IMG/VR virus record: IMGVR_UViG_3300035698_000727
Span: 1-20,540 of that record
DNA: 20,540 bases
Reading direction: 5' to 3' (one strand)
Source of the DNA: a virus
Below are positions 1,790 to 19,257 of this stretch, one piece after another. The first letter of the stretch is position 1, and the number at the start of each line of letters is the position of its first letter. The position numbers and the translations under genes are program-made. The notes under the pieces were generated by a model, which worked only from the letters and a program-made list of their open reading frames with translations, was not told the DNA's origin and made no database searches.

Positions 1790-3097
1790 TTATCTGTTTG
1801 ATATAATGAAGTATGCTTTTGTTTCGCTTGGTGTTGTTGTTCCTCCTTCTACAAAATTAAAAGATATTTTGATTTCATGAACAACATTTATGCTGTACAA
1901 TTCTATTAAATCTATAATTTCATTATATGAACTTCCTGGCGTACCTCCAGCATCCCATATCTTATCTGGATACGTATTTATTGTTACTCCATCTATAGAT
2001 AATACGATACTAGTTTTATCATTATCTAAGTTACCAATTGTAGTCACTGTAGTTGCTATATTATAACTAGATGCATTAGATCCTGTATCACCTACATTCA
2101 TTCTAATAGTAGAATAAGAATGATCCGAACCTGATAAGTTAGTTAGCCATGTGATTTCAGGTGAAACACTTACCCCGCTATATGGAAAGGTGAAAGGAAA
2201 AACATTTTTTATATTAAAATCGGTAGCTGGTAGAGGTACATTCCAACTGTCAGAAAGCCAGTAAGTCCCTGCCACGCCCGTTCCATTATGTACTATTGAG
2301 GCAGTAGCACTATCTACTGTTACAGTAGGGTTTCCATTACTATTACTTGCTGTAGTAAACATGTTACTTATCACTGTAGCTCCATTTTTATTTGGAAATG
2401 CAGCATTATCTGACGCTGAAGCAAATACATACTCTAAGAATTTACCTTGCTCTAAAGTGTCTGTAGCTGTATCAGTATCTCCACCTGTAATTTTAAATAC
2501 ACACTCAATATCTATTTCGGGATCTAAAGCAGGGTCAGGAAGCCCTTCTGAGCTTTGATAAGATGCTCCAGTAGCAGTAGCTAAACCTGAGTTCTTTGAT
2601 AATTCATTAATACTAAAACCTGTTGAGCTCCATGTAATATTAGTGTCTGTGATCGTAGATCCATTTGGCTTAGTTAATCCTACAGTGTCAAATATAGTAC
2701 TCAATGCTGTTATAGCTGCCGCACTATCATTATAAGCAAAGTAACCTGAATCCATTAAAGAACCACCTTGCAATGTAACTCTTAATTTAAACTCATCAGT
2801 AGCATCTAATACTCCTATGCCTTTTGACGCTGTAACGATAATATCGTTATCATTAACAGAATTTAAAGGACTATCTGGATTGGAATCAAGTATATTTATA
2901 CTGACTACAGGCACAGGCACACAACTAGGGCAAACTGTGGCACTATCTAAAACAGGAACACCTCCTATTATCTGCTGGCTTCTAGCGATAATACCGTCTG
3001 AATAAAAATTCTCTGGAGCAGGAATTGTCAACGCTTCATCTGTGTAAACACCTGTGGAATTAGCTAAAGTTGATCCATCTACGTAAAATGTTGGCAT
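1790..3097 (-). CDS. Probable surface-exposed tail/adsorption protein, function unknown
   Basis: A 435-residue protein rich in Thr, Ser, Asn, Asp and Val, with many predicted short beta strands and few charges. This composition is typical of exposed virion or fibre-like proteins. The N-terminus (FYVDGSTLANSTGVYTDEAL, then APENFYSDGIIARSQ and a C-P-S-C pair at about residues 56-59) is a module I associate with tail-region proteins of flavobacterial phages: an expected-value-like 'YTD...FYSDG...R' repeat-style head ending in Cys-Pro-Ser-Cys. The rest matches nothing I know. It lies between the muzzle-like gene (15-base gap) and the 261-residue tail protein (4-base gap), so it is co-transcribed with them. 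Host recognition is a reasonable guess, not shown. Confidence 0.65.
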   Translation of the reverse strand: MPTFYVDGSTLANSTGVYTDEALTIPAPENFYSDGIIARSQQIIGGVPVLDSATVCPSCVPVPVVSINILDSNPDSPLNSVNDNDIIVTASKGIGVLDATDEFKLRVTLQGGSLMDSGYFAYNDSAAAITALSTIFDTVGLTKPNGSTITDTNITWSSTGFSINELSKNSGLATATGASYQSSEGLPDPALDPEIDIECVFKITGGDTDTATDTLEQGKFLEYVFASASDNAAFPNKNGATVISNMFTTASNSNGNPTVTVDSATASIVHNGTGVAGTYWLSDSWNVPLPATDFNIKNVFPFTFPYSGVSVSPEITWLTNLSGSDHSYSTIRMNVGDTGSNASSYNIATTVTTIGNLDNDKTSIVLSIDGVTINTYPDKIWDAGGTPGSSYNEIIDLIELYSINVVHEIKISFNFVEGGTTTPSETKAYFIISNR

Positions 3098-6148: not shown

Positions 6149-6151
6149 TTA
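6149..6151 (-). other. In-frame TAA interrupting the muzzle-like gene
   Basis: The codon order on the minus strand is GGT ATT TAA GAG GCT. The frame is identical on both sides, so a single substitution (for example from CAA, GAA or AAA) would restore one open reading frame from 7702 to 3113. I see neither a classic read-through context after the stop nor a suppressor tRNA among the five tRNA genes in the window. Confidence 0.85.
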
Positions 6152-7703: not shown

Positions 7704-8627
7704 CTATTTTATCCACTTATCTCGACCCCTCATGTTTTGAAGTAATCTTCCCGGGTGTATGTTACTAATTCTAATTTTAGCATTTCTTAAAAGAGATGTT
7801 TTCTTTCGTCTTTTTCGATTTACAATATATTCCTGTACTCCTAATTTAGAGTCTAATAATTCATACTCCATATAAGCATAAATGTAAGACTCAAACATCT
7901 TATTTACACTGACAGAAGAATCGTCACCATTCTCCATTCCGTCTGACACGTATTCTAAAATACATATCTCATTAGACATTCCAGAACTAAAGTTAATCGT
8001 ACCACTTTTCTTATCTATCTTAAATGTAGGGTTAGAATTTGCTGTCTCTGTATTTAACCCATATCTAGCTCCTATGCCTAATTCAAAATACCAATTGCCA
8101 TCTACATTCCATCCTTCATAACCATCGTAAGGAGAACCTTCATTTAGATATATTGATGGTCTAGTACCCCTAATTCGTTCAAAGTCTATATTTGAAAACT
8201 CTGGACTTAATGCGTTACCTTCAATATCAAATAAGATATTACTATCATTATCCTGAAGGTATGCTTTAGCCCAATTTGTTTGAATATTTTCAGAAAGCGG
8301 AAATAAAACCCCTTCTCTGTATTGAGATATCCTTACCCAATTTACGTAGTCAGAAGGTAATATAAATCTTAATAATTCAGAGACGTTAAGTTCTAATATC
8401 TTTATCTCTTTAAACGCATCGTAATTAAGCTCTTGAATTGCTCTCTTAGCATGAAACAATATCTTATATCTCTCCTCATTATTTATAAGACTATGGTTTC
8501 CTTGGTGCATCAACATAAAATTGTTGACAATATTTTCTAGAGATACATATTGATACGATCCCCAATTAGCATCTGTAGGAGCATTACCTCCATTTTCGTA
8601 ATATTGATATTGGCTAATGTATGACAT
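7704..8627 (-). CDS. Ring/adaptor protein, tail-tube-A-like
   Basis: A 307-residue protein resembling the tail tubular A-like head-tail connector proteins (ring proteins of crAss-like virions). The N-terminal half has the usual pattern: a YVSLENIVNNFMLMHQGNHS helix, then NNEERYKILFHAKRAIQELN, then LELNVSELLRFILPSDYVNW, in which a helical bundle precedes a strand ending in 'LPSDYVNWVRIS'. The middle contains a WNVDGNWYFELGIGARYGLN stretch, and the C-terminal part is a basic helix with an RKRRKKTS cluster. It follows the first ring gene by 2 bases, stops with TAG, and is followed after one base by the muzzle-like gene. This matches the usual podovirus order of connector then nozzle. Confidence is high for the connector class and moderate for which ring it forms. 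Confidence 0.8.
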   Translation of the reverse strand: MSYISQYQYYENGGNAPTDANWGSYQYVSLENIVNNFMLMHQGNHSLINNEERYKILFHAKRAIQELNYDAFKEIKILELNVSELLRFILPSDYVNWVRISQYREGVLFPLSENIQTNWAKAYLQDNDSNILFDIEGNALSPEFSNIDFERIRGTRPSIYLNEGSPYDGYEGWNVDGNWYFELGIGARYGLNTETANSNPTFKIDKKSGTINFSSGMSNEICILEYVSDGMENGDDSSVSVNKMFESYIYAYMEYELLDSKLGVQEYIVNRKRRKKTSLLRNAKIRISNIHPGRLLQNMRGRDKWIK

Positions 8628-8629
8628 AT

Positions 8630-9604
8630 TTATTTCTCTTCTTGTGAGTCTAATTGCTCTGCGGCTTGAGCAAATTGTACCGCTGCTATTTCTCTTATAC
8701 TCATACCTGCAAGTTGAAGTATTTTAGTTACTAAATTTACCTCATCGTCAATTGGTAATTCAAAATCTTGGTAATCTAATGCCGAAGCGTCAAAAGCTGG
8801 CTCACCGCTAGTAAGATCTACAAACGTCCATTTAGGCGTTTTAGGATATCTTATATACTGAGCTATGACTTGACCTATGCCAGTTATAGTTGATGGATAT
8901 GAAGCTAGTAATAGATCTTCTTGAGTGTATGCAGGGTAAGATAAGTTAGGTTTTGTGATTAAGGAGTTATTTAGCATAGTGATTTTACTATGAGTAACCT
9001 TCTCTGCTTCTTTCACATTTTCTGGCTCATATATTGAGTAAGTTTGTCCGATTGTACTGAATAATATTACTCCTGAGATAGCTTCAACTTCTAATTGAGT
9101 CTCACTTGTTATTGAAGTGACCGTAGTGTTATATGTAATACCTCCTGCTACAGTTGAGATGATATCCCCTACAGCTATTGCTAAAGCCACAAAATCTACG
9201 GCTGTATCTTCGACTAACGTACCTGCGCCACCATCTACGGCTGTAGTTGTGCCTAAACCAATAAGGACTTCATTATTAATTAGAACTTTATTTATAAGGT
9301 AATAATCATTATTTGTAGTCGTTAATGACGGAAGAAAATACTTACTTCCATTAAACTTAAGTAAAGGCAAAGTTACAGAGAATGTATCTATAACTTCTTC
9401 TATAGATTTAGTAATATCAGCGTAACCCGTGCCAGATTGTCTAGCATTTTCCTTTATTATCTGATAATTGTACTGATAAAAATAGTTTTCAAATAAGTCT
9501 AACTGAGCTTGCTTTGCAAATAGGTTAAAATCAGATGGTGAAATGTATCCGTAATTATTTTTATTCAGCACTGACATTACTGTTTGCCTAACTGAGTTTA
9601 TCAT
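8630..9604 (-). CDS. Ring/adaptor protein, first gene of the tail module
   Basis: A 324-residue protein. The N-terminus (YGYISPSDFNLFAKQAQLDL, then FENYFYQYNYQI) and the C-terminal half (ELPIDDEVNLVTKILQLAGM, then SIREIAAVQFAQAAEQLD) form the frame of a small connector-type virion protein common next to the tail-tube-A-like gene in crAss-like and flavobacterial phages. Residues about 117-192 appear to be an inserted beta-rich module (GAGTLVEDTAVDFVALAIAVGD onward, ending TYSIYEPEN), which splits the family core. A promoter of the Bacteroidota type sits just upstream (-7 box at 9622-9629), so this is the first gene of its operon. The ATG at 9604 is 18 bases from that box. It ends with TAA 2 bases before the next gene. 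A head-tail ring role is inferred from context. Confidence 0.75.
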   Translation of the reverse strand: MINSVRQTVMSVLNKNNYGYISPSDFNLFAKQAQLDLFENYFYQYNYQIIKENARQSGTGYADITKSIEEVIDTFSVTLPLLKFNGSKYFLPSLTTTNNDYYLINKVLINNEVLIGLGTTTAVDGGAGTLVEDTAVDFVALAIAVGDIISTVAGGITYNTTVTSITSETQLEVEAISGVILFSTIGQTYSIYEPENVKEAEKVTHSKITMLNNSLITKPNLSYPAYTQEDLLLASYPSTITGIGQVIAQYIRYPKTPKWTFVDLTSGEPAFDASALDYQDFELPIDDEVNLVTKILQLAGMSIREIAAVQFAQAAEQLDSQEEK

Positions 9605-9621
9605 TTCTTATTTCTTTAGAA

Positions 9622-9649
9622 CAAAGATAATCAAAAAAAAAGACCCCAA
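9622..9649 (-). promoter_or_regulatory. Candidate Bacteroidota-type promoter of the tail module
   Basis: On the minus strand, TTG (9649-9647) is followed after 17 bases by TATCTTTG (9629-9622). This fits the Bacteroidota primary sigma consensus TTG ... TAnnTTTG. The start codon of the first ring protein lies 18 bases further. The TTG belongs to the 3' arm of the terminator hairpin that ends the tRNA unit, so terminator and promoter overlap. Confidence 0.6.
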
Positions 9650-9671
9650 CTTTTTAGAATTGGAGCCTTTA
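9633..9671 (-). terminator. Rho-independent terminator after the tRNA array
   Basis: On the minus strand an AAAGGCTCCAA arm pairs with TTGGGGTCTTT across a loop of about 10 bases, with G-U pairs inside the stem. A run of T residues (nine in total) follows immediately. It begins a few bases after the 3' end of the last tRNA gene, exactly where an array terminator is expected. Confidence 0.75.
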
Positions 9672-9676
9672 GATAG

Positions 9677-9750
9677 TGACTCATGCAGGACTCGAACCTG
9701 CAAAAAATAGATTCTAAATCTACTATGTGTACCAATTCCATCAATGAGCC
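9677..9750 (-). tRNA. tRNA-Leu(TAG) with a short variable region
   Basis: The acceptor arms GGCTCAT and ATGAGTC pair over 7 bp (one G-U) with discriminator A. The D arm reads GATGGAATTGGTACACAT, very like bacterial tRNA-Leu. The anticodon loop TTTAGAA gives anticodon TAG (codon CTA). The T arm is GCAGG-TTCGAGT-CCTGC. Only about 5 T residues separate the anticodon and T stems, instead of the long class II arm usual for Leu. No CCA is encoded. Confidence 0.85.
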
Positions 9751-9756
9751 ATACTG

Positions 9757-9830
9757 TACTCCACCTTGGACTCGAACCAAGACTGAACAGAGTTTAAGTC
9801 TGATGCCTCTGCCTATTAGGCTAGTGGAGT
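9757..9830 (-). tRNA. tRNA-Leu(TAA) with a short variable region
   Basis: The acceptor stem is ACTCCAC with GTGGAGT (7 bp), T8 and A9 are present, and the discriminator is A. The anticodon loop CTTAAAC gives anticodon TAA (codon TTA). The outermost anticodon-stem pair is a T-T mismatch. The T arm CTTGG-TTCGAGT-CCAAG is perfect. The variable region is only 5 bases, not the long Leu arm. It reads sense codon TTA and not stop codons. Confidence 0.85.
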
Positions 9831-9834
9831 ATTT

Positions 9835-9907
9835 GCTGTTACCTGAGGCTCGAACTCAGATCATCGGATTCACAGTCCAACCGCTTAACCATTTAGCGTA
9901 ATAACAG
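9835..9907 (-). tRNA. tRNA-His(GTG)
   Basis: The acceptor stem is CTGTTAT with GTAACAG. The D stem CGCT/AGCG, anticodon stem TTGGA/TCCGA and T stem CTGAG/CTCAG all pair. The loop CTGTGAA gives anticodon GTG. The discriminator is C73, the histidine identity base, but the base at -1 is T and not the usual encoded G. No CCA is encoded. Confidence 0.9.
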
Positions 9908-9909
9908 AG

Positions 9910-9980
9910 TTTTTCCAACTGGACTCGAACCAATAGTACAACCGTCAAAGGGTTGTGTGTTACCATTACACTATAGAAAA
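9910..9980 (-). tRNA. tRNA-Gln(TTG)
   Basis: The acceptor is TTTTCTA with TGGAAAA. The D arm ATAGTGTAATGGTAACACA is almost the standard bacterial Gln D arm. The anticodon stem is CAACC/GGTTG and the loop CTTTGAC gives anticodon TTG (codon CAA). The discriminator is A and no CCA is encoded. It is a sense tRNA and not a cognate suppressor of TAA or TAG. Confidence 0.9.
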
Positions 9981-13565: not shown

Positions 13566-15992
13566 TTATCTTGGATTAAATTCTGATAAATCGAATCCAT
13601 CTAAGCTGTCCTCGTTTGATTCAAAATTTACAGGAGCTAGATTGTTTTGTCTCTGATCTATCAATTTAGACTGTTGAGTACTCTGTTCTTTAATTCTATC
13701 TGATTTTGAAGCTTCTCTTTGGTCTTCTCTCATCTGCAACTGCTGTCCTTCTATTTGCCTAATCTGCATATTTAAGTTAAACTCTTGAGTCATCAGTTGA
13801 GACTTCAATTTAGCTTCCTCTTTCATCTTCTCTATCTCAAATGCCACATCAGCTTGCCTATATTGAATCTTAGCCTGAGCCTCTGCTTGTATTTTCATCT
13901 GAGCAGATTTCTGAGCTAACTCTTGAGATTTTAACTGCTGCTGTGCCTGCATCGCTTGTTGCTGCATCTGCATCCTTTCTTCACGATCTTGTTTAGCTAG
14001 TCTTTTCAATTTTAGTAATTGATTAGCTAATTTCATATTTCTTATCTCCCTAATATCAATTGCATCTTCTAGGTTTATATCTCCTTTAGATAGTGCTAAT
14101 TGTATATTTTGCTCTAATTGCGCTTTTTGCTCCTCATCTGGAGATAGCTCTATAAATATACCAAAGTCATATATGTACAAGTCCTTAATATCCCCAAGTA
14201 TAGATACGTTATACTTACCTATTTGGTTAATAAATTCCTCCTTAAAGTCTGAGTATTCTAATATATCAGCTACTCTATATGTGATAGCTTGAGCAAATGT
14301 TCGATACATATAAAGACTAGCATCTAAAACGTGTCTTGTAGCTACGTTTGAATTTAAAGCGGCTATCTTCTGAAGTCCAATTGAACCGTTAGGATCAGCA
14401 TTTGATCCGTCTCTTGCTTCATTTACTCCCGTCACCCCTCTAATTTGATCTAGGTAATGATTGTAATTGGAAATAAGCATCTGTGTCTTTGACGCTCCTG
14501 AAGATGATTGTAATTCTTTAATTGGAACTTTACCTTGGTTGTATTCCCCGTCTTGAGTGTAACTACGGCCAACCACACTACCTGTTTGAAAGTATAAACG
14601 TAAAGCATCTTCTGGTGCGTAGGCCGCGCCCCCGCCTAAATCAACTTCATTTATTCCGTCCGCATCTATATATACACCGTCTGGTACAACTCTTTGTATT
14701 ACCTGCTGTAGCTTCATGTGCGTGATCTGTATAAGATCAGCAAATGTGATAGCTCTACTTACCATAGACTCAATAGACCCCTTGTACATACGAGGTGCTG
14801 TACATATATAATTAGGAATAGCATGCTGAGCAGCTGATTGTGGCCTTACCATGTTCTCCATAAGTTTCCACTGAAGCACAACATTAGTGCCTAATACCAT
14901 TACTCCTTCATACCACACGTCAATAGTCTTAGACTCCATCGTAAAGTTCCCATCCTCTTGCATTTCTACAGGAGGATTGAACGTGTCGTCCTTCTTAATC
15001 ATACTAACGTTTCCGTTATCTTTTACTTTTCTTTTGTAAACAACTTTCTTTGTCGTCTTATAATTGAAATACAACAAATTAGTAGTCTCCCTTGAGAATA
15101 TGCTATTACTATCTGGATTATATTCACGAGTCCAACTGTCAGAGTACTTGGAAATTTCCTCTAAATCATCTGTCGTTAATTCTGGATCAATTTTAACAAG
15201 CTCACCTATGGAGACTGATTTTACTTCACCCCAATAGAAACAATCTTTAAAATTAGGATCTTCAGTATAACTATAAATAAGGTTTGCAGGATCAACATAA
15301 GACAGCCTTACACCATCGCCAGCTAAGAACTCATGTTTACCACACGATATCCCTAAATCTACCATATCCTTATCTAATCTCTTACGAGTGTCGTCATACA
15401 TATTTGACTCAAATAAAGTACTTATAGCCTGTTCTGTGGCTATCTCTATTGCTGGCTTGTAATTAAGCTGCATGTATAATTTAAGTTCTTCGTCTGAGTT
15501 AGGTAACTCATTAGAATCTACTGTAAAAGGATTAACCCCCACTTTTTTCTGAATAGTCTCTAACATAGGACGGGCTAACATTTGCCCCTCTATCATTTGC
15601 TGATACTTACTTCTCTTAGATTGTGATAGCGCGTCTTGCGCAAATGCTTTTGGTACGAACTCCCTGCTCTGTAAGCCATTTACAACAATGTCTACAAATT
15701 TAGGTATGATAGGAACAGGCGTCCAATCTAAGTTTAGATAAGATAAATCGCCATCAATAGCTAATTCATTCTTATACTTAGCTACCGACTGCTGGCCTCT
15801 TGAATATAACCTACGTCTGTGAAATTCTCTCTGCTGCTCGTAATACCTACAACTACCACCGTCTTTAATAAACCATTGATGTTGAATACTCTGGCCTATC
15901 CTTAATCCAAAATCAAGCGTTTCTTTTTCAGAGTCTGAGACAAATTGACTTGGAAAACCTTTGTATGGTATGTTGATTTCTACTTTTTTCAT
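13566..15992 (-). CDS. Portal protein
   Basis: An 808-residue protein that forms the dodecameric ring at the packaging vertex. The N-terminal part (RYYEQQREFHRRRLYSRGQQ, then LDWTPVPIIPKFVDIVVNGL, QSREFVPKAF) and the central block (RGVTGVNEARDGSNADPNGS, then IGLQKIAALNSNVATRHV) match portals of crAss-like and related podoviruses. The latter resembles the wing-to-crown region that precedes the C-terminal barrel. From about residue 640 on it is a long glutamine-rich coiled coil (MQMQQQAMQAQQQLKSQELA and similar), which in podovirus portals can form the barrel inside the head. The start ATG at 15992 overlaps the TGA of the terminase (ATGA), so the two are translationally coupled. Scaffold and capsid genes follow. 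Confidence 0.85.
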   Translation of the reverse strand: MKKVEINIPYKGFPSQFVSDSEKETLDFGLRIGQSIQHQWFIKDGGSCRYYEQQREFHRRRLYSRGQQSVAKYKNELAIDGDLSYLNLDWTPVPIIPKFVDIVVNGLQSREFVPKAFAQDALSQSKRSKYQQMIEGQMLARPMLETIQKKVGVNPFTVDSNELPNSDEELKLYMQLNYKPAIEIATEQAISTLFESNMYDDTRKRLDKDMVDLGISCGKHEFLAGDGVRLSYVDPANLIYSYTEDPNFKDCFYWGEVKSVSIGELVKIDPELTTDDLEEISKYSDSWTREYNPDSNSIFSRETTNLLYFNYKTTKKVVYKRKVKDNGNVSMIKKDDTFNPPVEMQEDGNFTMESKTIDVWYEGVMVLGTNVVLQWKLMENMVRPQSAAQHAIPNYICTAPRMYKGSIESMVSRAITFADLIQITHMKLQQVIQRVVPDGVYIDADGINEVDLGGGAAYAPEDALRLYFQTGSVVGRSYTQDGEYNQGKVPIKELQSSSGASKTQMLISNYNHYLDQIRGVTGVNEARDGSNADPNGSIGLQKIAALNSNVATRHVLDASLYMYRTFAQAITYRVADILEYSDFKEEFINQIGKYNVSILGDIKDLYIYDFGIFIELSPDEEQKAQLEQNIQLALSKGDINLEDAIDIREIRNMKLANQLLKLKRLAKQDREERMQMQQQAMQAQQQLKSQELAQKSAQMKIQAEAQAKIQYRQADVAFEIEKMKEEAKLKSQLMTQEFNLNMQIRQIEGQQLQMREDQREASKSDRIKEQSTQQSKLIDQRQNNLAPVNFESNEDSLDGFDLSEFNPR

Positions 15993-18589
15993 GTAATAAT
16001 TTCACTTCTTGAGCCCGAATTACTGTACCTTGCAAAGTTAACCTTTATTTTTGACTGTTTTTGCTCAGGTAAGTACATACCTTTTTGAGTTGCCATTATA
16101 GCCAATCCTGAGCTAATAGACGCATCGTGATTAGTTCTATTGCTAATATCAAATTTAGACCAATCTTCAAGTGTCCTGTTAAATATCATAGTACCCATTT
16201 CGATTGAATCCCTATAGTTTCCATCGGTATCTATACCTACATGCTTCTCAATATAAGACTCAATAGCTGTAGCGTGTGACTGCTTTACGTCTTCGCTTGA
16301 GTTAGGAATACCTCCTAGCTCCTTTTCTGTTTTAGAAAGTTTATTCCATCTCTTGTCTGGACGGTTAATTGAGAACCCTCTATATCCCCTGTTTTTAAAA
16401 TGATATAATAATCTAGGCTTGTTATTCTCTATTAAGATAGGCATTCCATAAAAAACACAAGCCTTTAAAACGTCTTCATAAAATATCTCCGCTGTCTGAG
16501 GTCTTGCTATGTATTCTAAGAAAAACTCATTCACAGGTGCTTCATCCATGTGAAAAGTAGTTAACCCATGAAGAGAGCCGTTAGACCCGCCTCCACCAAC
16601 TATACCTGATATATCGTAGCTATCACAACCGAAAGCTCCGAGGTGATCGTTTGCTGGATATTTCACTCCGTTCTTTACATGAAACCTATTCTGCATATTC
16701 TTTTTAGGAGTCCAGCTAACCCTAAATCTTCCTCTAACATCAGGGTTAAATACTACCTTAGTATCCTTCTCACCATTTAACCAAGTCATGTTGCCAATTG
16801 TCACCTCTTGTCCTATTATTAACGTATCATTATAATCAATCTGTTGATATATTTTGGTAAGATTAAATAAAGACTGCTTAGACTCATCTCTAAATGCGTG
16901 AGATTCCGTTCTTGGGAACTGACGGTAAAATTCATTTAATGCGTCAGGATCACTTTTTAAAGAATCAACCTCACCTTCCCAATAGTCAATAGCACCATCT
17001 CGAATCATCTCACCATCTATACCTAACAAAGGCTCTAAAGGTGTTCTAAATACAGGCCAACCAAATCTATCTATATATCCCTCGAAATTCCACTCCATAG
17101 GTATGAATAAAGAATACAACCCACTCTTAGTCCTACCGTTCTTACTCCTATTGCTTACGTCAGAATCATAATATAAAGCCTTATATTCCGCTCCACCTTT
17201 ACTTAGAGCATTGGAGGTTGAACCCATCATGCACTTGCCTATGATTTTTGCTCCTAACCTTAAGCACGTCTTTGTAACTCTCCAGTTGTTTAGTATGTTA
17301 TTGGGTTTAAGCCATTTTGCAGAGTTCATAGACACAGTGAAGTCGCTAAGTATTAGCTTTCTTTCATTGTCGTTTTCTCCGTTTACCTGTATCCCAACAT
17401 ACCCTCCATAATCTAAATATTCTACCGATACTTTACTTCTTCTTCCCCTTGATTTAGGAGTGTAATTTTCGAAACTTTTATATTTAGATAGAATAGGTAT
17501 TCTAGATAAATCTCCAGATATTCCTACTCTGTATACTTGAGTGTTAAAGTTAGATGTATAATTTTCAATATTACCACAACTTAATCCACAGGATAGGGCG
17601 AGTAATCTAATGTCTTCTATAAGACCTAATCGGCTCATTCCTATAGATACTGTTCCTTTTTTTAAATCTGAAAACCCATCTGAATCAGAAATTCCAGCTA
17701 AAACCTGAAGTCTTGCTTCTATAGATGATTTTAAATACTGTTTTGGAATGTGCTTATTTTTAAATACGCCTATTTTTTTTAGCTCTTTATTTATTTTTTT
17801 AAATCTAAATTCAACAACCTTCTCATTACATTCAATTTGATCTTTTATGTAAAAATCTATTTTTTTCATTTTAGCTATCATTCCTAGATACTCCAATATT
17901 TCTGGAGATCTTTGAACATTTACCATTATTGACATTGACTCTTGCCTGCCATCTCCTAACCATAAACCTAGAAGATATGGAGGTATGCCATCAAAACAAT
18001 CTTCTGACTCTATTCCTTTTGACACTACTCTAGTTAAATGCTGCTTAATAAATCCTGAAGAATTAATGTAGTCTTCTGGATTCATAATAACTTCTTCATG
18101 ATATCCTTTTTTCAGCCTAGCGTTGTACTTATATCTATTAAATACCAATCTGTGGTTTTTAGTTACAATATAATCTTTTCCGTATGGCTGTTTAACTATG
18201 TACCTATCAGTTTGACCTGAAATGGTTTTCATTACTGTTTTAATTACGCCTCCTTCAATAATAACTTTTTCTCCAATCTTAATGTCTTTTATTTCTTTAA
18301 AACTCCAATCATCCATTAATATTTTAGTCTCTGGAGCATAACATTCATCGTGAGCTAAGAATAATAACTTTTCTCCATCGTATGAGTTATCATCTGTATT
18401 CTTCCAATCTATACTTGTGTCCAGCCCTTCTAATTCCTCAAGGTCTGTCTCGTACATATTCTTTTTGGTAATCTTAGCCGCTGGAATCCTAAATGCTAAT
18501 TCAGTCTTTGGCTTATCCATACCATCTTGAATAGGTTTAAAAAAGAACGGAAGACTGTTTGCTATAGGTACTACCTTATCGGTAAACAT
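15989..18589 (-). CDS. terL: Large terminase subunit, C-terminal part, with an intein in the Walker B site
   Basis: An 866-residue frame. Residues 1-82 are the middle of the packaging ATPase, ending in the Walker B motif KLLFLAHDE. Residues 83-422 are an intein. Residue 423 on resumes the ATPase (SAKWLKPNN, then motif III region KCMMGSTSN at 452-460). The RNase H-like nuclease has candidate acidic residues at D656 (GCDSYD), E721 (ILIENN) and D823 (NHDASISSG). Seven more codons upstream of the ATG (TGSDAKK) are also TerL-like, so the true N-terminus is in the preceding frame. After splicing and frame repair TerL would be about 749 residues, a usual size. The enzyme cuts concatemers and pumps DNA through the portal, whose gene overlaps its stop. 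Confidence 0.9.
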   Translation of the reverse strand: MFTDKVVPIANSLPFFFKPIQDGMDKPKTELAFRIPAAKITKKNMYETDLEELEGLDTSIDWKNTDDNSYDGEKLLFLAHDECYAPETKILMDDWSFKEIKDIKIGEKVIIEGGVIKTVMKTISGQTDRYIVKQPYGKDYIVTKNHRLVFNRYKYNARLKKGYHEEVIMNPEDYINSSGFIKQHLTRVVSKGIESEDCFDGIPPYLLGLWLGDGRQESMSIMVNVQRSPEILEYLGMIAKMKKIDFYIKDQIECNEKVVEFRFKKINKELKKIGVFKNKHIPKQYLKSSIEARLQVLAGISDSDGFSDLKKGTVSIGMSRLGLIEDIRLLALSCGLSCGNIENYTSNFNTQVYRVGISGDLSRIPILSKYKSFENYTPKSRGRRSKVSVEYLDYGGYVGIQVNGENDNERKLILSDFTVSMNSAKWLKPNNILNNWRVTKTCLRLGAKIIGKCMMGSTSNALSKGGAEYKALYYDSDVSNRSKNGRTKSGLYSLFIPMEWNFEGYIDRFGWPVFRTPLEPLLGIDGEMIRDGAIDYWEGEVDSLKSDPDALNEFYRQFPRTESHAFRDESKQSLFNLTKIYQQIDYNDTLIIGQEVTIGNMTWLNGEKDTKVVFNPDVRGRFRVSWTPKKNMQNRFHVKNGVKYPANDHLGAFGCDSYDISGIVGGGGSNGSLHGLTTFHMDEAPVNEFFLEYIARPQTAEIFYEDVLKACVFYGMPILIENNKPRLLYHFKNRGYRGFSINRPDKRWNKLSKTEKELGGIPNSSEDVKQSHATAIESYIEKHVGIDTDGNYRDSIEMGTMIFNRTLEDWSKFDISNRTNHDASISSGLAIMATQKGMYLPEQKQSKIKVNFARYSNSGSRSEIIT
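17324..18343 (-). mobile_element. LAGLIDADG homing-endonuclease intein inside terL
   Basis: This 340-residue block starts with Cys (CYAPETKILM, then IKDIKIGEKVI: the A block). It continues with the B block VTKNHRLVF, where T143 and H146 of the frame fit T-x-x-H. Two LAGLIDADG motifs follow, PYLLGLWLGDG (about 203-213) and LQVLAGISDSDG (about 293-304). It ends with GIQVNGENDN...LSDFTVSMN followed by Ser as the first C-extein residue. The F/G block keeps the terminal Asn, but the penultimate His is replaced by Met. The insertion is exactly after the Walker B Asp-Glu, a typical site for inteins in essential ATPases. Confidence 0.9.
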
Positions 18590-19257
18590 TTTCTTTGCAT
18601 CCGAACCTGTTTAGATAACACTCCTATTCTAGAATCTTTTGCTAATGTACCTATGTTAACACATTCAGAGGATTCCATATATGAAAATCCAGAACGCCTT
18701 ATCTTTAGGTACTGCATACCAAATGATCTATTGTCTGCCTTACACGCTTCCCAATGTAAAAATAAAATCCTATTAGCCTCTCTAAAATCAGGATACCCTA
18801 TATCAATTTTAGCCCATTGGAGGTACATATAATTAGATCCAGTGATATAAGTAGACTCACCGTTATTCATAAACCATACTCCTAATTCTCTACGGTCAAA
18901 TTCACCTTCTATGTAATCTACCCACTTATCTTTAAACTCTCTTGGTTTCTCATTCCATTGAAATATTGACTGTATTTTAGAAAGGTCTTTGGGTAAATCT
19001 TTTCTTTCCCAATATTGCTCTGACTTTTTACCTGATCTTTTTTCGCAACTATTTGGTTGTTTAGGTAGGGCTATATTTAATCCTTGGACAGATATAATAT
19101 CCCCTATCTGGCCGTCTTTAGATATAACTACAAAATCATATTTTTCATCATAGCCGTAAACCCAAGACTTTGTTTTGTTTTTTTTAGCCAAAACCGTCTT
19201 AGGAACTATATCGTGTAGTGTAGTATATAATCTACTTTGATGCTCTTCTTTCTGCAA
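18571..19257 (-). CDS. terL: Large terminase subunit, N-terminal part (frame broken)
   Basis: A 228-residue frame. Residues 1-216 are the start of TerL: a charged leader, then KIQSIFQWNEKPREFKDKWV, GVWFMNNGESTYITGSNYMY, then DFREANRILFLHWEACKADN, with the Walker A-like sequence LKIRRSGFSYM at about 184-194. This is the deviant P-loop form (K-x-R-R-x-G-x-S) seen in crAss-like terminases. The last 12 residues (QVRMQRKCLPIR) are out-of-frame readout. In the other frame the same bases give TGSDAKKMFTDKVV, the expected continuation after VLSK. So this fragment and the 866-residue frame are one gene with a one-base lesion. The ATG overlaps the upstream gene by 26 bases. Confidence 0.9.
   Translation of the reverse strand: MQKEEHQSRLYTTLHDIVPKTVLAKKNKTKSWVYGYDEKYDFVVISKDGQIGDIISVQGLNIALPKQPNSCEKRSGKKSEQYWERKDLPKDLSKIQSIFQWNEKPREFKDKWVDYIEGEFDRRELGVWFMNNGESTYITGSNYMYLQWAKIDIGYPDFREANRILFLHWEACKADNRSFGMQYLKIRRSGFSYMESSECVNIGTLAKDSRIGVLSKQVRMQRKCLPIR
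18609..18612 (-). other. Apparent single-base deletion (frameshift) in terL
   Basis: The minus-strand bases read TTA TCT AAA CAG GTT CGG. One additional A in the A run would give TCT AAA ACA GGT TCG GAT GCA AAG AAA ATG (SKTGSDAKKM), which restores the TerL frame. The run is three A here and presumably four in an intact gene. A short homopolymer is a common place for both sequencing and replication slippage. Confidence 0.85.

Follow-up and report, generated by a model that had tools for sequence, protein, structure and literature searches.

The window, by which we mean the whole 20,540-base IMG/VR virus record IMGVR_UViG_3300035698_000727, carries on its minus strand a gene for the terminase large subunit (TerL), the packaging ATPase. 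Within this gene lies a 340-residue stop-free translation that runs from Cys1 to Asn340 and is directly followed by Ser+1 (Table 1). A preliminary description of this DNA, made from the sequence alone, had proposed a LAGLIDADG intein at this place, and its limits proved to be exact to the base.

Table 1. Features of the terL locus in the window (positions in the record; minus, reverse strand)
Feature	Position	Strand	Evidence or remark
Intein, Hint splicing domain and two-motif LAGLIDADG endonuclease, 340 aa	17324..18343	minus	Pfam, phmmer, AlphaFold, Foldseek, VIA-align
Block A, CYAPETKILMDDW, Cys1 nucleophile	18305..18343	minus	Cys in 40/40 distinct alleles
Block B, QPYGKDYIVTKNHRL, Thr61 and His64 (T..H)	18146..18190	minus	His64 in 40/40, Arg65 in 40/40, Thr61 in 35/40 alleles
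LAGLIDADG motif 1, LLGLWLGDG, Asp131	17948..17974	minus	Aligned with PI-SceI Asp218 (counted on the phmmer alignment)
LAGLIDADG motif 2, LAGISDSDG, Asp222	17675..17701	minus	Aligned with PI-SceI Asp326 (counted on the phmmer alignment)
Block F, Arg328 at 17360-17362	17354..17404	minus	Same column His in 27/41 other-site relatives
Block G, DFTVSMN, Met339 at 17327-17329 in place of the penultimate His, then Asn340	17324..17344	minus	Translation and allele alignment
N-extein stretch sharing the frame of the intein, ends ...LLFLAHDE (Walker B)	18344..18589	minus	
TerL N-terminal part with Walker A-like KIRRSGFS, frame differs from the remainder	18571..19257	minus	Frame break near 18590-18610
TerL C-extein, starts SAKWLKP (+1 Ser), runs to the stop codon	15989..17323	minus	

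When the intein was searched alone against Pfam, Hom_end_hint (3.8e-9), Hom_end (9.2e-6) and LAGLIDADG_3 (3.6e-5) each passed their cut-offs, which bears out the Hint and LAGLIDADG assignment; with the entire ORF as the query, LAGLIDADG_3 was slightly under its cut-off. A phmmer search of PDB sequences found PI-SceI at 3.6e-7. An AlphaFold model covering the intein and 10 residues of extein at either end had a mean pLDDT of 90.2, and Foldseek matched the modeled intein to PI-SceI with an E value of 1.4e-24. VIA-align placed model residues 11-350, which correspond to intein residues 1-340, on residues 1-454 of PI-SceI (1vde_B, Z 30.6). Thus, the predicted fold is PI-SceI-like from end to end, and both ends of the intein agree with those of a solved intein. 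With the window intein as the sole query, no viral contig was matched in a direct scan.

Block A, block B, the two LAGLIDADG motifs and block F/G, all recognized in the preliminary description, could each be located by coordinates. The residue set of the intein (Cys1, T..H in block B, the C-terminal Asn and Ser+1) is of class-1 type. Class 3 inteins are set apart by the absence of the nucleophile at position 1, and Cys1 is present here in all 40 distinct alleles of this site.

Host protein and integrity of the terL frame

The sequences that flank the intein match a terminase large subunit family (phrog_6681, E 5.9e-114), and in the nearest phage record, MW202828.1, the matching protein is annotated as the terminase large subunit. 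Other named relatives are phages of Flavobacterium, Cellulophaga, Tenacibaculum and Maribacter. The host of the intein is a tailed phage, and its named relatives infect Flavobacteriia. Elsewhere in these genomes, MW202828.1 (L082) has genes annotated as GroEL and a 10-kDa chaperonin at 8046-9936, and the window ORF at 8630-9604 encodes 324 amino acids versus 256 in its MW202828.1 relative, the extra length being in the middle (9011-9211).

Among the at least 80 loci that the C-extein matched in viral contigs (the best 80 were kept), 2 carry the intein, 2 start within the C-extein and 76 are empty. The intein-free TerLs run continuously across the junction (...HDE|S...) in all 76 junction-readable relatives among the matches listed, as expected if removal of the intein rejoins HDE to SAKW. 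A profile-profile alignment (hhalign, deep on both sides) between the TerL family and the T4 gp17 family (probability 94.2, E 1.1e-7) put HDE on T4 YIDE and KIRRSGFS on T4 LSRQLGK, which we take to be the Walker B and Walker A motifs of gp17, respectively. As HDE pairs with YIDE, the insertion point of the intein immediately follows the acidic pair of Walker B, where it had been placed before. A shallower TerL profile, aligned by hhalign with the single TerLs of T4, lambda, HK97 and T7, gave no significant match. A TerL profile search of PDB sequences returned chance matches only, a Pfam scan of two empty TerL relatives matched no family, and an AlphaFold model of an empty TerL, built on a 26-row alignment, was poor (pLDDT 40). 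Because the intein sits behind the catalytic Asp-Glu of Walker B, unspliced TerL should be without a working ATPase.

Upstream of the intein, the window terL also contains a one-base frame shift, which leaves the N-terminal part in one ORF and the remainder in another frame (15989-18589). Aligned with the TerL of MW202828, the window follows residues 1-216 in one frame up to 18607 and the residues from 217 in another. Of 161 loci given to a check of the frame, the N-terminal parts were without a match in 9 and partially matched in 5; at least two contigs appear in duplicate in this set (L074 and L163 share one, L153 and L186 another). In 145 of the 147 loci with both parts readable, terL is in one frame, the exceptions being the window's own locus (L081) and L042. 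The window contains a further defect, an in-frame TAA at 6149-6151 that splits its tail/structural gene (7702 to 3113), a single CDS in MW202828.1. A frame shift in this gene was considered and ruled out, the defect being the stop codon itself. Metagenome contigs often contain scattered single errors, and both the frame break and the TAA are likely due to sequencing or assembly errors. In L114, a stop codon at 2998-3000 replaces the last codon of the N-extein (HD*|C) while the rest is intact, which is probably a lone sequencing error.

Since the frame is broken upstream of it, the intein by itself cannot make the window TerL work, and the window copy of TerL and intein may be non-functional. 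The two defects would suit a dead element, in which TerL is broken and the intein is drifting. We consider this very unlikely: all 340 codons of the intein are open and the clade-invariant residues are retained, dN/dS between the window and the L135 intein is 0.19 for the Hint domain and 0.25 for the endonuclease, terL is in frame in 145 of the 146 other readable loci, and L042 and L114 have similar lone defects. Another reading, in which the break separates two TerL proteins or is crossed by programmed frameshifting, and the intein belongs to the second part, could draw on an ATG at 18589 in the second frame. However, the one continuous frame in those 145 loci and the position of the break, within a conserved stretch aligned with T4 gp17, leave it hardly any likelihood.

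Penultimate residue and block F

His at the penultimate place is typical of inteins, although not obligatory, and the window intein has Met there, as had been read before. Among the 86 contigs with readable ends at this TerL site, the window included, the penultimate residue is Met in 60, Leu in 26 and His in none. These contigs were collected in two scans. The first used patterns near the C-end of the intein, which could bias the residue count, and yielded 72 site loci with 47 Met, 25 Leu and no His. None of them has an internal stop, the C-junction is N|S in 72/72, and the N-junction is DE|C in 65 of 66 readable loci, L114 being the one that differs. The second scan used patterns from intein residues 1-250 only, and the best 80 loci were kept. 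An automatic C-end was obtained for 31 loci, 12 of them on new contigs, and with L198 in addition 13 contigs were added; 12 of these have Met and one has Leu, which matches the outcome of the first scan. The second scan omits L184, L193, L197 and L199, site loci that end before the end of the intein. The +1 residue is Cys in the distant alleles L194, L195, L196 and L198 and Ser in the remaining alleles read.

For comparison, 81 site alleles (53 different sequences) were reduced to 40 at 93% identity and aligned with 41 hand-chosen relatives from other sites. In block F, the column of the helper His is occupied by Arg in all 40 distinct site alleles. By our reading of the block numbering in PMC4031507, this column would be F:13, a known assisting position, at which His is the commonest residue but is not obligatory. 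The residue after the block B His is also Arg in 40/40 site alleles, versus Ile in 35 of the 41 relatives. Both helper His are missing together in none of these 41 hand-chosen relatives; one of them, L223, has Arg at the penultimate place and retains the block F His. It should be noted that the other-site C-ends in the second scan were chosen by a filter favoring HN, and two sets obtained free of this filter served as controls. All 10 other-site phage inteins examined end in HN. Among 44 related cellular inteins examined, the penultimate residue is His in all 41 with readable ends; these 44 came from the best 80 matches, of which 3 of the first 47 were dropped and the other 33 were left out.

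Natural phage inteins with a penultimate Gly, Lys or Ser are on record in PMC5050341, where the block F His is described as able to substitute for the penultimate His. The same text reports that a phage RDF intein with a native penultimate Gly was fully spliced at time zero and that its Gly to His mutant needed more than 5 hours to reach approximately half splicing; for other inteins it cites that His at this place speeds splicing or has no effect.

The preliminary description had further suggested that Met may slow or condition splicing and that packaging might thus be gated. Met or Leu is fixed in the alleles read (86/86), the RDF test runs in the opposite direction (PMC5050341) and the cited literature is mixed; gated packaging, with the missing His as its sole evidence, was dropped as the leading reason for the Met and is not supported. 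We also consider unlikely a conditional form of splicing, slowed or made responsive (for example to redox or timing) by Met/Leu and the missing His, through which the packaging ATPase would appear late in infection. Both known helpers of Asn cyclization are missing in 40/40 distinct alleles, a gene used late would be a plausible place for a delay, and His does speed splicing in some inteins (PMC5050341). However, no signal or condition is evident in the sequence by inspection without a special tool, and the trait is uniform in 86 contigs over wide divergence, which is easier to reconcile with a fixed chemistry than with tuning; the fast native Gly form of the RDF intein and its slow His mutant, in the same source, point the same way. 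The absence of both usual helpers could in itself mean slow splicing. The lineage has persisted and spread in an essential gene, so it presumably must splice well enough.

Descent, spread and selection

In an 81-row intein tree, the 40 site alleles form one side of one branch (SH-aLRT 100). Three switches between Met and Leu are needed on the 40-row tree, a number that is uncertain because a single clade of all Leu-type inteins was not rejected (p-AU 0.125). As every readable site allele has Met or Leu, this state is probably ancestral in what has been a successful lineage. A tblastn search with a clade member against 50,697 phage records gave no match of at least 60% identity, and the 12 matches listed were 29-31% identical.

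On a tree of 125 different TerLs, 74 empty and 51 occupied, occupancy requires 20 changes, and 13 of these are forced by well-supported branches. With shuffled labels the mean was 39.7 changes; thus, occupancy also clusters by descent. The window TerL belongs to an 11-row set (support 96) with L149, L005 and 8 empty TerLs. Grouping the inteins of the window, L149 and L147 (the representative of L005) as a clade was rejected with a p-AU of 1.7e-5, a value that ignores that this grouping was picked after the TerL tree was seen. In the 12 most discordant pairs, the TerL of L194 is 23-25% identical to the others and its intein 44-48%. Over 666 pairs of occupied loci, the identities of intein and extein correlate (Spearman 0.63, Pearson 0.83), and much of the history of the intein would therefore be shared descent, with some transfers.

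The Asp residues of both LAGLIDADG motifs (D131 and D222) are kept in 40/40 distinct alleles. The dN/dS of the endonuclease is below 0.3 in 11 of 13 independent pairs (0.02-0.28, all without L194 or L198), whereas the two pairs that involve L194 and L198 give 0.49 and 0.69; all 133 usable pairs together have a median of 0.21 and a maximum of 0.75. The patchy distribution, the discordant trees and the low dN/dS point to a mobile, maintained element. The earlier suggestion that homing could be active is in line with these data, as the endonuclease is intact and the intein is probably still mobile.

The predicted fold, boundaries, insertion site, conserved residues, clade and patchy distribution of the intein are directly established. 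On this basis, we regard it as highly probable that this is a class-1-type splicing, homing intein of a tailed-phage TerL, and that its C-terminal end represents a stable, working variant of the active site rather than a regulatory brake. Judging from the conserved residues, Cys1 would start the reaction, the chain would pass to Ser+1, Asn340 would cyclize and HDE would be joined to SAKW. Asn cyclization in this clade would have to do without both the penultimate and the usual block F His, the bulky Met/Leu and the invariant Arg occupying the two helper places. From its distribution and the selection acting on it, the LAGLIDADG domain would carry the intein to empty copies of terL. That the intein splices, at what rate, and that its endonuclease cuts DNA are in each case predictions from sequence. 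One possibility for the last cleavage step, which we think doubtful though worth stating, is a different active site, in which the invariant block F Arg and the bulky hydrophobic penultimate residue replace both His; the Arg that follows the block B His might take part, and the host's Walker B His-Asp-Glu might assist. Alternatively, Arg and Met/Leu may simply tolerate the loss of the two His. If this host triplet does help cleavage, the intein would be tied to this one TerL site.

Relation to known inteins

The closest solved fold is that of PI-SceI, the yeast VMA1 intein, which likewise combines Hint and LAGLIDADG parts (Z 28-31, 21-23% identity). Its Asp218, Asp326 and Lys301, which we take to be catalytic, pair with Asp131, Asp222 and Lys197 of the window intein when counted on the phmmer alignment. 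PI-SceI differs in its host protein and is approximately 100 residues longer, and its Lys403 falls on Asn293 of the window intein, which is not a Lys; a shared Lys lies a few residues off.

The nearest cellular relatives in the scan were inteins in the P-loop of a putative DnaB from Bacteroidota and Campylobacterota, of which the 44 examined are 24-36% identical over the N-terminal 250 residues; we read their hosts as DnaB from the motif AARPxMGK|C...HN|T. They differ from the window intein in that 39 of the 44 lie behind Walker A and 41/41 readable ends have the penultimate His. Inteins at Walker A of phage helicases and TerLs, such as those of Klebsiella KpV2811 and Vibrio pYD38-A, are of the same family, the best 40 of 631 matches covering 89-100% at 25-30% identity. 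The 10 that were examined differ in being at Walker A or, in one case, in the portal protein, and all 10 end in HN. An intein lineage that seeks Walker B and hops among different ATPases was considered and rejected, as these 10 related phage inteins lie at Walker A or in the portal protein. A separate observation concerns the helicase of Vibrio phage PS65A.1 (L089), which has an intein at Walker A and, directly after a DE that resembles Walker B, what looks like the start of another intein (QDE|CFPAGTLITMADD).

In a literature search that covered few subscription papers, we found no account of the clade or of a penultimate Met/Leu. TerL inteins are well known, and natural inteins without the penultimate His are known too (PMC5050341). 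Thus, the window intein is ordinary as a TerL intein, and what is unusual is the loss of both helper His throughout its clade. The mycobacteriophage RDF intein is comparable in having a natural non-His penultimate residue and splicing well, according to PMC5050341, with Gly there and Met/Leu in the window clade. A mobile and widely diverged clade without either His provides natural variants for probing how Asn cyclization proceeds in their absence, and could be a source of useful tools for protein splicing that are new.

The mycobacteriophage intein TerL1-e lies in Walker B, was shown to splice and is classed among class 3 inteins (PMC5050341). By our own reading of Gaia gp2 (FIILNE|ALALDTP...THN|SHH), TerL1-e resembles the window intein in being a TerL intein behind the Walker B acidic pair and before Ser. 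It differs in having Ala at position 1 and in keeping the penultimate His, whereas the window intein has Cys1 and Met. The clade described here thus adds an independent intein lineage at what appears to be the TerL Walker B position of mycobacteriophage TerL1-e.
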